From IMG/VR virus record IMGVR_UViG_3300025598_000229, positions 1 to 20,403 of that record: a stretch of 20,403 nt of DNA. One strand, 5' to 3'. Position 1 is the stretch's first letter, and every line of letters begins with the position of its first letter. Position numbers and translations under genes: made by a program. This DNA is from a virus. This document shows positions 11,436 to 14,713 of this stretch, piece by piece. The notes under the pieces are model-generated. The model had not been told where the DNA came from. It saw only the letters and a program-made list of their open reading frames with translations, and did no database searches.

Positions 11436-11930
11436 GTGTCAGACGTAAATGATCGTTTCATCACTTTTTCCCCATATGAAGCTGACCAGCTGACCGTTCT
11501 CGGCGTATTATATGCTGGACCGGAAGACACTGGCTATGTTTTGGTTAAGGAAGCCTTCGACGATACGGACATCGAGGCCGCTGCTAAACTTGTAGGGCAG
11601 TGGATCGAGGATCTGCAAGAAGAACTTGACGGCTTCCAGAGTGCTCTTGAGGATGCCGATGAAGAAGAAACCGACGAAGACATCGAAAATTACTACGATT
11701 TTAGTGACATCGAGGAAGATGAAGACACCGATGAAGACGACGAATCAGTCTATGGCGACTGGAAACTTTATGCCGGTGTCTGGAATGATGGCGACACTAC
11801 ATCGTTAGAGTTTGATGATTCTTTCCATGAAAATCTGGACATTGATTCCCGAATTGCAATGTTGACCGACATCGCCACCGCTGCTATGGCGGGTGTAGAG
11901 GCGCTTCGGGCAGGACGGGATGCACAATAA
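11436..11930 (+). CDS. Highly acidic phage protein (possible DNA mimic)
   Basis: 164 residues from a GTG at 11436, preceded by GGAGG at ideal spacing; an ATG at 11403 lacks a ribosome site. The centre is extremely acidic, with runs such as EDADEEETDEDIENYYDFSD and DIEEDEDTDEDDES. Folded segments flank it (FITFSPYEADQLTVLGVLYA; IAMLTDIATAAMAGVEALRA). Acidic surfaces of this type are found in DNA-mimic phage proteins that block restriction enzymes or nucleoid proteins, and also in simple phosphate-rich linkers. The next gene is a DNA methyltransferase overlapping it by 11 bp, which makes a link to restriction plausible. Function is not established. Confidence 0.78.
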   Translation: MSDVNDRFITFSPYEADQLTVLGVLYAGPEDTGYVLVKEAFDDTDIEAAAKLVGQWIEDLQEELDGFQSALEDADEEETDEDIENYYDFSDIEEDEDTDEDDESVYGDWKLYAGVWNDGDTTSLEFDDSFHENLDIDSRIAMLTDIATAAMAGVEALRAGRDAQ

Positions 11931-12483
11931 CAAAACCGACAAAGCGATGCTCGGCACCTCTGGCTATGAGCGTGTCGAGCACGACCTATACGAAACACCG
12001 GCATGGTGCACCGAGGTGCTGTTGCGCCATGTTGTGTTCCAAAAGATCATATATGAGCCAGCAGCAGGCCGTGGAGCCATTGCACGGGTGCTAGAGCTAC
12101 ATAACCACCAGACCATCTGCCATGACCTTGTGGTGCGTGATTATCAGCCTTGTGCACAGACAGACTTCTTTCATGTCAAATCCACGCAAAAGCACTTCGA
12201 CATCGTAACCAATCCTCCATATGAGTGCTCGGTGCAGTTCGTTCGGCATGCACTGGCAATCACTGGGCCGGGCCAAAAGGTGGCCATGCTCCTTCGTAAT
12301 GAATGGGACTGTGCCTATACCCGGCGGGATCTATTTATGGAGATGCCGTTTAGGCTCAAGATCGTGCTTACACGCCGTCCTAAGTGGTTTAAGGATGACA
12401 TCAACGCGCCTCGGCATTCTTTTAGCTGGTATGTGTGGGATCACAATTGGTACAGTCCACCAGAGCTGATCTACGATCAGTAA
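11920..12483 (+). CDS. DNA N6-adenine methyltransferase (NPPY type)
   Basis: 187 residues. DLYETPAWCTEVLL opens the domain, EPAAGRGAI (46-54) is the SAM-binding motif I, and FDIVTNPPY (93-101) is catalytic motif IV of amino-methyltransferases. VAMLLRNEWD and RPKWF follow as in phage orphan methyltransferases. The enzyme should transfer a methyl group from SAM to an exocyclic amine, usually adenine N6. There is no separate target-recognition domain and no restriction endonuclease beside it, so it is an orphan enzyme, likely protecting phage DNA or altering regulation. CAGGACGGG precedes the ATG, inside the acidic gene's end. Confidence 0.87.
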   Translation: MHNNKTDKAMLGTSGYERVEHDLYETPAWCTEVLLRHVVFQKIIYEPAAGRGAIARVLELHNHQTICHDLVVRDYQPCAQTDFFHVKSTQKHFDIVTNPPYECSVQFVRHALAITGPGQKVAMLLRNEWDCAYTRRDLFMEMPFRLKIVLTRRPKWFKDDINAPRHSFSWYVWDHNWYSPPELIYDQ

Positions 12484-13330: not shown

Positions 13331-13571
13331 GCGTATGAAAATGGCTAAAGCTGGTGCAGATAGCATCTCATGCCAACACGGATGGAGACCAATCGACACC
13401 GCACCAACCGAAGGTGAGGCACTTGTTTGGGATGGCAAAGAAGTTTGGTTCGTCGAAATTGGCCCCAATAAATTTTGGCCAAAACAAAACGGATGTGGTT
13501 GCTGTTCGGAACCTATACATGCAATCCTTTGGCAACCATCACCGCATCCACCACTGAAGGAATCAGAATGA
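13302..13571 (+). CDS. DUF551-like small protein
   Basis: 89 residues; ATG 13302 is chosen because GGAGGAACGTG precedes it (GTG 13299 is too close to the ribosome site). GWRPIDTAPTEGEALVWDGK, then VWFVEIG and ILWQPSPHPP, follow the DUF551 layout (W-P-I-x-T-A-P-x-x-G ... W-x-P-L-P-x-P-P), a family common in phages and prophages with no known function. A CGCC pair may bind metal. It overlaps the HTH gene by 29 bp and the next gene by ATGA. Confidence 0.78.
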   Translation: MPRIGLSELERMKMAKAGADSISCQHGWRPIDTAPTEGEALVWDGKEVWFVEIGPNKFWPKQNGCGCCSEPIHAILWQPSPHPPLKESE

Positions 13572-13810
13572 CTGACAATGTAATCAACTTCAAATTTGGC
13601 CGTAACACCTCAGCTGGTAAATACGGTAACCTTGCCGACATTGTGCGTGAATGCGCCGATGGTGACCACTGTAAAGATGCGACAGGCTTTATCCTGCTGT
13701 TTGACTGCCCCGATGGTGTCAAGGGCACTGCGGTCAATGTGACCAATGGTGACATGCTGTGGTTGGCTGAAAACCTCCGCATGATGGCCGTGACTAAAGA
13801 CTTCGGCTGA
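13568..13810 (+). CDS. Small phage protein, function unknown
   Basis: 80 residues from the ATG at 13568 (ATGA overlap with the previous stop, AAGGAATC upstream). The frame is open further 5' but only as shadow of the DUF551-like gene. The protein is a compact alpha/beta type (ATGFILLFDCPDGVKGTAVN; GDMLWLAENLRMMAVTKDFG). From memory, such proteins occur in phage early regions without a known role. Confidence 0.72.
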   Translation: MTDNVINFKFGRNTSAGKYGNLADIVRECADGDHCKDATGFILLFDCPDGVKGTAVNVTNGDMLWLAENLRMMAVTKDFG

Positions 13811-13872
13811 TGGAAGAGCTTGTGTGGCTGTTTATAGTGTTGTTGTTCATATGGGCGGTCGCGCATGCTTAA
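13810..13872 (+). CDS. 20-residue membrane microprotein
   Basis: MEELVWLFIVLLFIWAVAHA, stop TAA. It is an almost complete single membrane span with an acidic N-terminus. The start overlaps the previous stop as TGATG, and its end overlaps the methyltransferase start by 8 bp, so it fills the only space between two tightly packed genes. TTCGGCTG is a poor ribosome site; translation would rely on coupling. Function unknown. Confidence 0.5.
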   Translation: MEELVWLFIVLLFIWAVAHA

Positions 13873-14713
13873 AGTATTAGACTTGTTTAGTGGCATTGGT
13901 GGGTTTTCATTGGGGCTTGAGGCGACTGGTGGTTTTAAAACAGTGGCTTTTTGCGAAATAGAACCGTATCCTGTTGCCGTCCTTAAAAAACATTGGCCTA
14001 CTGTACCGGTATATGAAGATGTCAAAACACTTACCAAAGAACGACTTGATACAGATGGAATTTCCGTGGATGTCATCTGCGGAGGATTCCCGTGCCAAGA
14101 CATCAGCCTTGCCGGGAAAGGAGCAGGACTTGCCGGAGAACGCAGCGGCCTTTGGTTCGAGTTCCACAGGCTCATTGAAGAAATCAAGCCGAAAGTCATC
14201 ATCGCGGAAAACGTCTCAGCCCTTCGCAGTAGAGGATTGGACCAAGTGCTCCGGTCACTCGCTGAGATCGGGTATGATGCGGAGTGGCACTGTATACCCG
14301 CTTCCGCCGTTGGCGCACCTCACCGCCGCGACAGGATCTGGATTGTGGCCTACCCCAACAGTGAATGGGAATTACAACCGCAAAGGATTAAGCAAAACAA
14401 GCGGGGATGGATTAGCAACAGTAGTGAAGCTATGGCCAACACCGGCGGCGAGGGATTACAAAGGCATGAGTGGAGCGGGGAGACAGGAACGCAAAGGCAA
14501 CCCAGCGGATACGCTACCCAATGCGGTTGGTGGGACATTGAACCCAATGTGGGTCGAGTGGCTGATGGGGTTCCCCATAGGGCACACCGTCTTAGAGCAT
14601 TGGGAAACGCGGTCGTCCCGCAAATCCCGCAAATGATTGGCAATGCAATACTTTCTTGGTATAGTAATCAAACACAAGGTGATTTATGTGTGTGCATGCA
14701 CAAGCGGGTCTAA
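13865..14713 (+). CDS. C5-cytosine DNA methyltransferase
   Basis: 282 residues, complete motif set: motif I DLFSGIGGF (6-14), motif IV GGFPCQDIS with catalytic Cys77, motif VI ENV (116-118), motif VIII RDRIWIV (about 155-161), motif IX-X RLRALGNAVVPQIPQMIGNAI (about 243-262). The region between VIII and IX, which holds the target-recognition loop, is only about 80 residues, short for the family, so specificity is probably for a short site. The enzyme methylates cytosine C5 with SAM. It has no restriction partner here. The +1 frame of the same DNA carries a long ORF (see 14055-14636). The last dozen residues overlap the next gene. Confidence 0.93.
   Translation: MLKVLDLFSGIGGFSLGLEATGGFKTVAFCEIEPYPVAVLKKHWPTVPVYEDVKTLTKERLDTDGISVDVICGGFPCQDISLAGKGAGLAGERSGLWFEFHRLIEEIKPKVIIAENVSALRSRGLDQVLRSLAEIGYDAEWHCIPASAVGAPHRRDRIWIVAYPNSEWELQPQRIKQNKRGWISNSSEAMANTGGEGLQRHEWSGETGTQRQPSGYATQCGWWDIEPNVGRVADGVPHRAHRLRALGNAVVPQIPQMIGNAILSWYSNQTQGDLCVCMHKRV
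14055..14636 (+). CDS. Candidate overprinted protein nested in the cytosine methyltransferase gene
   Basis: A +1-frame ORF open over 13974-14636; the ATG at 14055 (MEFPWMSSAEDS) gives 193 residues, with alternatives at 14013 and 14070. Its translation contains RSGMMRSGTVYPLPPLAHLT, SGLWPTPTVNGNYNRKG, LWPTPAARDYKG and LNPMWVEWLMGFPIGHT. From memory these match proteins annotated as separate genes in many phages and bacteria (WPTP repeats and an LNP-x-WVEWLMGFP ending). Here they are read from the same bases as methyltransferase motifs VIII and IX-X. There is no obvious ribosome site. It may be a real dual-coded gene, or those database proteins may be shadow translations; the sequence alone cannot decide. 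Confidence 0.4.
   Translation: MEFPWMSSAEDSRAKTSALPGKEQDLPENAAAFGSSSTGSLKKSSRKSSSRKTSQPFAVEDWTKCSGHSLRSGMMRSGTVYPLPPLAHLTAATGSGLWPTPTVNGNYNRKGLSKTSGDGLATVVKLWPTPAARDYKGMSGAGRQERKGNPADTLPNAVGGTLNPMWVEWLMGFPIGHTVLEHWETRSSRKSRK

Follow-up and report, generated by a model that had tools for sequence, protein, structure and literature searches.

C5-cytosine DNA methyltransferases made of two polypeptides have been known since 1995, when Lee, Kam and Shaw reportedly described M.EcoHK31I, a two-polypeptide enzyme that recognises YGGCCR. Its beta polypeptide is reportedly nested within alpha in an alternative frame, as at the locus described here. The single-chain enzymes M.HhaI and M.HaeIII consist of a large domain with motifs I-VIII and X and a small domain with the target-recognition domain (TRD) and motif IX (PMC3404938). 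M.EcoHK31I and M.AquI are natural two-polypeptide C5-methyltransferases: the large subunit of the former carries motifs I-VIII and X and the predicted TRD, with motif IX on the smaller polypeptide, while the beta polypeptide of M.AquI (CYCGRG) carries part of the variable region, motif IX and motif X (PMC3404938). The Bacillus phage enzymes M.SPRI, M.phi3TI and M.H2I are multispecific, with tandem target-recognising units in one chain (PMC8936443), and the ShiLan domain is an HNH endonuclease hidden in phage methylases (PMC11855218).

Here we analyse a 20.4 kb viral record (the window, the whole stretch of 20,403 nucleotides), whose phage genes include a helicase, a primase and terminase subunits. 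One of its loci very probably encodes a two-subunit C5-cytosine DNA methyltransferase in two reading frames, with alpha as the catalytic large domain and beta as the predicted DNA-recognition small domain. As in M.EcoHK31I, the larger subunit holds motifs I-VIII and X and motif IX (LNPMWVEWLMGFP) lies on the smaller one; by description the two are set apart, since conservation places the cassettes in beta here whereas the published TRD is in the large subunit, and the host range, the cassette array and the number of members are much wider here. M.AquI is similar in that two polypeptides complete one enzyme, but the window and the viral relatives selected by frame 0 keep motif X on alpha and their overlap is a full nesting; relatives of the AquI type were found in Mycobacteriophage, Arthrobacter and Streptomyces phage (L001, L092, L093 and L098). 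The Bacillus enzymes are likewise phage-borne and have tandem units, which may act through the same specificity mechanism; they are single chains, whereas the tandem units described here lie in the +1 frame, on a separate subunit. The two-domain layout of M.HhaI and M.HaeIII is the same, and the model of a single-chain relative aligns across the full M.HhaI chain, but the domains here would come as two chains from two frames. The ShiLan domain resembles beta in being encoded in an alternative frame of a phage methylase, but it is an inserted homing element, whereas beta would belong to the enzyme and shows no similarity to HNH. No hidden homing endonuclease of the ShiLan type was seen here: beta had no Pfam match, and the homology of its +1 frame is to the TRD-IX part of methyltransferases. 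In the literature searched, four points reported below seem to be undescribed: the wide distribution, the paired start codons, the location of the cassettes in a nested frame and the way these modules are reused.

Two reading frames at the viral locus

The sequence-only reading had reported a +1 frame open for 220 codons at 13974-14636 inside the methyltransferase gene. ORF and sequence checks found this frame as claimed, as an ORF on the (+) strand that begins with a TTG and lies in frame +1 relative to the methyltransferase ORF at 13865-14713, together with the blocks that had been quoted from it: RSGMMRSGTVYPLPPLAHLT, read from the bases of EIGYDAEWHCIPASAVGAPH, two WPTP motifs and LNPMWVEWLMGFPIGHT, read from EPNVGRVADGVPHRAH. 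The open frame stood as described, but the start of the gene was placed differently: beta, which the ORF encloses, probably begins at ATG 14055 (MEFPWMSS) or ATG 14070 rather than at TTG 13974, because synonymous constraint rises only from about 14024-14068 and because in many relatives a start codon occurs at the position corresponding to 14055 or close by. The whole open run of the +1 frame measures 224 codons. Shuffles of this gene only reached this length in 1, 2 and 3 of 20,000 cases when, respectively, synonymous codons were permuted, the codon usage of the window was applied and codon order was permuted (mean open runs of 97, 99 and 76), which is suggestive, not decisive.

Alpha matched PF00145 (E 3.2e-49) and phrog_363 (E 9.3e-87) and presented motifs I, IV (PCQ), VI (ENV), VIII and X in order (Table 1). 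The PF00145 alignment covered only profile positions 1-202 of 324 and ended at alpha residue 203, and the variable region and motif IX were not found on this one chain. Similarly, the alpha profile matched M.HhaI over 12-180 and then over a second stretch, 294-318 (motif X), which is statistically weak by itself; the skipped part of M.HhaI comprises the target-recognition region and motif IX. The pattern of motif IX was absent from frame 0 of the alpha relatives and was found in the +1 frame instead. The last quoted block had been assigned to motifs IX-X of the methyltransferase, an assignment that fails for motif IX, as the motif-IX-like sequence sits in the +1 frame.

Two further ORFs were noted in the window. 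One, at 11920-12483 and about 1.4 kb upstream, carries an NPPY motif and resembles another DNA methyltransferase (phrog_799, E 5.9e-48), probably an N6-adenine or N4-cytosine enzyme. The other is an antisense ORF (13513-14202).

Table 1. Features of the alpha and beta reading frames (window positions)
Feature	Position	Strand	Description
alpha	13865..14713	+	282-aa C5-cytosine DNA methyltransferase, catalytic (large-domain) subunit; motifs I-VIII and X, without motif IX
alpha motif I	13880..13903	+	DLFSGIGG, AdoMet binding; from sequence and from PF00145 and M.HhaI alignment
alpha motif IV	14081..14098	+	GGFPCQ, catalytic Cys; from sequence and M.HhaI alignment; PCQ kept in 64/64 relatives
alpha motif VI	14207..14215	+	ENV; E115, N116 and V117 invariant in alignment A3
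alpha motif VIII region	14312..14335	+	GAPHRRDR; from sequence and alignment
alpha motif X	14600..14641	+	LGNAVVPQIPQMIG; LGNAVVPQ
beta	14055..14636	+	gene nested in the +1 frame; 193 aa if begun at ATG 14055 (alternative start ATG 14070); predicted recognition (small-domain) subunit
beta N-terminal segment	14055..14348	+	MEFPWMSSAEDS...RSGMMRSGTVYPLPPLAHLTAATGSGLW; overlaps alpha motifs IV-VIII; synonymous ratio about 1.3-2.2
beta cassette 1	14349..14435	+	PTPTVNGNYNRKGLSKTSGDGLATVVKLW; cassette family shared with L010, L015 and L052
beta cassette 2	14436..14537	+	PTPAARDYKGMSGAGRQERKGNPADTLPNAVGGT; family also in L041
beta motif-IX-like segment	14538..14588	+	LNPMWVEWLMGFPIGHT; alpha frame EPNVGRVADGVPHRAH; ratio 3.0

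Selection on both frames

The +1 frame had been read either as an overprinted partner of the methyltransferase, for example a specificity subunit, or as a shadow that had given rise to a whole database family. In the second case the frame would be open merely through composition and methyltransferase conservation and the databases would be full of false proteins; the first half of the +1 protein does overlap strongly conserved methyltransferase motifs, enough to look conserved. Two of the checks that had been proposed, stop-codon depletion and synonymous constraint, were run on 64 non-redundant relatives from IMG/VR and phage records, taken from the best 80 matches per scan. The IMG/VR relatives had been retrieved through frame-0 peptides alone, so this set was gathered without regard to the +1 frame. 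From the PCQ motif to the IX region, 61 genes contained 6 stops in the +1 frame, when 289.5±11.9 were expected from permuting synonymous codons within each gene, which keeps the methyltransferase. The frame was fully open in 57 of these genes (shuffle mean 0.9, maximum 4). The LNPxWVEWLMGFP pattern was present in the +1 frame of 54 out of 61 relatives and never arose in 300 shuffles, and the seven remaining genes carried variants such as LNPTWVEWLMGFEAGWT.

Synonymous constraint was expressed as a same-codon ratio, the chance that two relatives sharing a methyltransferase residue use the identical codon, relative to the codon-usage expectation, and flanking codons of the same genes controlled for relatedness. 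Counted over pairs that are not independent, the ratio was 1.00-1.15 upstream of 14024 and 1.3-2.3 inside the +1 ORF, peaked at 3.0 over LNPxWVEWLMGFP and was 1.05 just past the +1 stop, although alpha continues into the conserved motif X. The excess thus rises and falls with the +1 ORF, and codon choice loosens at the beta stop codon (TGA 14634-14636), which falls within motif X of alpha. The codons of the IX stretch were near-frozen (GAA 62/62, CCC 63/64, GTG 53/53, GCT 52/52 and GGG 63/63), and frame-0 residues of this overlap varied (N/D/H/Y; V/I/F/L) where the +1 residue was constant (M in 63/64; F in 61/64). Because of the stop depletion, the synonymous constraint bounded by the ORF and the frozen IX codons, we conclude that the +1 frame is a protein-coding gene under selection. 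With the variable region also better conserved in the +1 frame than in frame 0, the chance that the database family is a shadow is virtually nil.

The two frames behaved differently between motifs VIII and X. In all 25 cassette families compared, conservation was higher for the +1 protein (0.87) than for the frame-0 protein (0.52; pairs not independent), and in the family of cassette 1 the identities were 0.85 and 0.41. Frame 0 contained no stops in the variable region of 59 genes, when beta-keeping shuffles gave 160.8±10.3. As frame 0 is kept stop-free and beta is better conserved, both frames count. The simplest reading of these sequences is that alpha would be translated through the variable stretch to reach motif X and that its own sequence there matters little; selection on the variable region appears to be that of beta, not of alpha, which seems to be new. 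According to the published view of M.EcoHK31I, beta would supply motif IX only and the recognition domain would be the alpha stretch between motifs VIII and X. The predicted TRD is indeed placed in the large subunit (PMC3404938), and the alpha stretch occupies the canonical TRD place and is kept open. This arrangement is nonetheless very unlikely here, given that the cassette families are 52% identical in the alpha reading and 87% in the beta reading and that single-chain relatives carry PTP cassettes in the catalytic frame between motifs VIII and IX.

Beta proteins contained one to five 'PTP' units, mostly of 25-45 residues each, after an N-terminal segment in which R71, S72 and G78 were invariant in 58 beta proteins. 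Cassette families recurred at differing positions and in differing company, among them PTPTVNGNYNRKGLSKTSGDGLATAVK (in the window, L010, L015 and L052), PTPRASEYKDCGPVGSKSHTHM... and PTPCARDWKDNGKSPAELNRNSKTLATHAGG, and the unit PTPQASDHRDRGNLSNP... of L031 and L064 had a close match in an enzyme from a Paenibacillus polymyxa plasmid (L096). Beta thus appears to be built from reused tandem cassettes, apparently a new observation, and each cassette may have a DNA target of its own.

The Paenibacillus polymyxa plasmid locus (L096, 879-2369) was unusual in another respect: its beta frame carried two IX-like segments, LNPTWVECLMGFP and LNPAWVECLMGFP, and in its alpha the corresponding RVSDGLS/RVLDGLS stretch occurred twice, as though partly duplicated.

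Single-chain relatives and translation of beta

Beta from the window matched phrog_1008 ('DNA methyltransferase') with an E value of 1.7e-26, a significant profile match, as did Bloom_57 (E 6e-72) and Colucci gp83 (E 2e-91); altogether, beta proteins matched the families phrog_1008, 10223, 26627, 27243, 31772 and 35493. Pfam, NCBIfam and PADLOC searches gave no match for beta, and its profile found no credible structure among PDB sequences, only chance matches to plasminogen activator inhibitor. AlphaFold predicted no fold for beta alone (58 sequences, pLDDT 52.6), a result that is uninformative for an obligate subunit and lends no support either, and this model was excluded from the fold searches.

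Relatives with one chain located beta within the enzyme. In single-chain actinophage relatives (Shauna1 gp67-like; L091, L100-L156), one frame carried motifs I-VIII, tandem LLPTP cassettes, the EWMMG stretch and motif X, and the beta profile aligned to exactly their cassette and EWMMG part (hhalign 97.5%, E 7e-12). PF00145 spanned one of these relatives, L108, almost entirely (1-317 of 324), and the model of this chain (pLDDT 73.7) aligned with M.HhaI 12-327 (Z 22.0, rmsd 3.8, 256 residues). Since alpha lacks the TRD and motif IX and beta aligns to that part of the single-chain enzymes, beta would correspond to the small domain and alpha to the large domain. The family presented three layouts: nested, as in the window; split, with motif X on beta; and single-chain. 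In the split loci Katalie136 76/75, Colucci 82/83, Chickaboom 41/42 and Lilbooboo 32/33, beta was a separate gene with cassettes and motifs IX and X.

These relatives also bear on whether beta could be an overprinted protein of unrelated function, for example in anti-restriction or regulation, that only shares the locus. Viruses commonly carry genes that arose de novo by overprinting (PMC8227390), and beta had no match in Pfam, NCBIfam or PADLOC. However, beta holds exactly the pieces that alpha lacks, the split relatives carry motifs IX and X on beta, and alpha lay beneath beta in nearly all loci selected by beta, which makes an unrelated function most improbable. Together with the selection on its frame, this supports the overprinted partner that the sequence-only reading had proposed, with specificity as its predicted role.

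Several relatives showed other arrangements of the frames. In single-chain relatives L100-L148 (for example L100, 1501-2865), a +1 ORF of about 100-190 codons carried PTP cassettes, no motif IX and raised synonymous constraint, and in most of them it stopped at a conserved TAG where the frame-0 cassettes begin (TAGACCTGCTGCCGAC; +1 ...SAVMDL*, frame 0 ...VDLLPTP). A 99% identical relative, L123, had motifs IX and X in the +1 frame; a frameshift, a hop or a cassette-only product are candidate readings of these ORFs. A Candidatus Megaera plasmid locus (L095, 1155-2180) had motif IX (LNPDWVEWLMGYP) in the alpha frame and PTP units in the +1 frame, followed by a stop, a layout that, as judged from its motifs, is intermediate between nested and single-chain. 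In Mycobacterium phage Llama (74/75; L004, 1441-2200), comparison with Spikelee gp77 (L005) showed a frameshift in alpha beyond motif VI, and alpha is annotated there as two separate DNA methyltransferases; it may be either a broken or a working split gene.

The start of beta is the weakest point, since no clear Shine-Dalgarno sequence precedes ATG 14055 in the window. Among the viral relatives, an internal start codon behind a Shine-Dalgarno core was present in 33 out of 64, compared to 11.2 in shuffles (for example AAAGGAGAAGACA-TTG). One bacterial subfamily, with members in Pseudomonas, Halomonas, Acinetobacter and other genera, had the start codons of alpha and beta 4 nt apart behind one Shine-Dalgarno sequence (GGAGGATAA-ATGAATGAGCTGGCTC), so that the overlap is nearly complete. 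These paired starts, which give alpha MNELALF and beta MSWLFSQ, were seen in 26 of 67 beta-selected bacterial loci (from the best 80 matches per scan). Such starts and the +1 in-frame stops found shortly 5' of the beta start in a number of relatives argue against programmed frameshifting from alpha, which would yield a fusion of the alpha N-terminus to beta and no separate subunit. This explanation, which draws on the flips of frame within the family (single-chain, split and nested) and on a natural in-frame alpha-beta fusion (L177), is highly improbable.

The paired-start sequence itself (ATGAATGAG; L171, 1781-2600, and 25 other bacterial loci) would be a case of two proteins made via one ribosome landing site.

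We propose that alpha and beta would be translated separately from one message, beta via its internal start. Alpha would contribute AdoMet binding, the catalytic Cys, motif VIII and the C-terminal motif X, and beta its N-terminal segment, an array of 'PTP' cassettes of about 30-45 residues in the place of target recognition, and motif IX. Both subunits would be needed, and may assemble into one M.HhaI-like enzyme in which the cassettes would determine specificity. The frame-0 stretch between motifs VIII and X would serve as a linker held open so that translation reaches motif X. The enzyme would methylate the DNA of the phage itself, presumably against host restriction.

Distribution and meaning of the nested pair

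Of 87 loci from viruses or phages that had the +1 layout (best 80 matches per scan), 86 kept alpha open past the IX motif of beta, with motif X present. Among the beta-selected bacterial loci with this layout (best 80 matches), alpha stayed open in 64 out of 67 and the motif X pattern was matched in 28. Those of the remaining 36 that were inspected carried motif X as LGNGQVP or IGNGQVP, which the pattern missed; for the WVEWLMGWP subfamily, motif X (LGNGQVP) was consequently assigned by reading examples. According to record titles, the organisms included Alpha- and Gammaproteobacteria, Actinobacteria, Verrucomicrobia, Synergistaceae and others. A search for standalone members had also been suggested, and none was found among the best 80 beta-selected bacterial matches: only L174 and L193 had no alpha, both at contig ends. 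Where beta overlapped little, it was the second gene of a split methyltransferase.

The earlier statement that such proteins are annotated as separate genes was right. In Paenibacillus larvae phages both frames are annotated (Bloom_57 inside Bloom_56; LILY_63 as 'g62 internal gene'). Pseudomonas phage VB_PaD_phPA-G has beta alone, as a hypothetical protein, and in E. coli PT62 (L242) alpha alone is annotated and beta was missed. As annotation often keeps one frame, many phages are misread as to what they can methylate and with which specificity, and several of the PHROG families that match beta have no function assigned or a loose one.

Long same-strand overlapping genes in prokaryotes are disputed, and here the evidence for selection on both frames is very strong. 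The pair occurs in phages that are not related to one another and in bacteria from several phyla, with a clear proposed mechanism, two enzyme domains from two frames. These loci offer a collection of methyltransferases already split by nature, whose putative recognition cassettes would be exchangeable; nested pairs from E. coli prophages are among them. Altogether, we consider it somewhat more likely than not that a large class of C5-methyltransferases from phages and bacteria have their specificity held in exchangeable +1-frame cassettes, and that phages retarget their enzymes by recombining short cassettes of DNA that have to remain open in both frames. If so, beta would carry the meaning of the cassettes, and alpha need only pass through.
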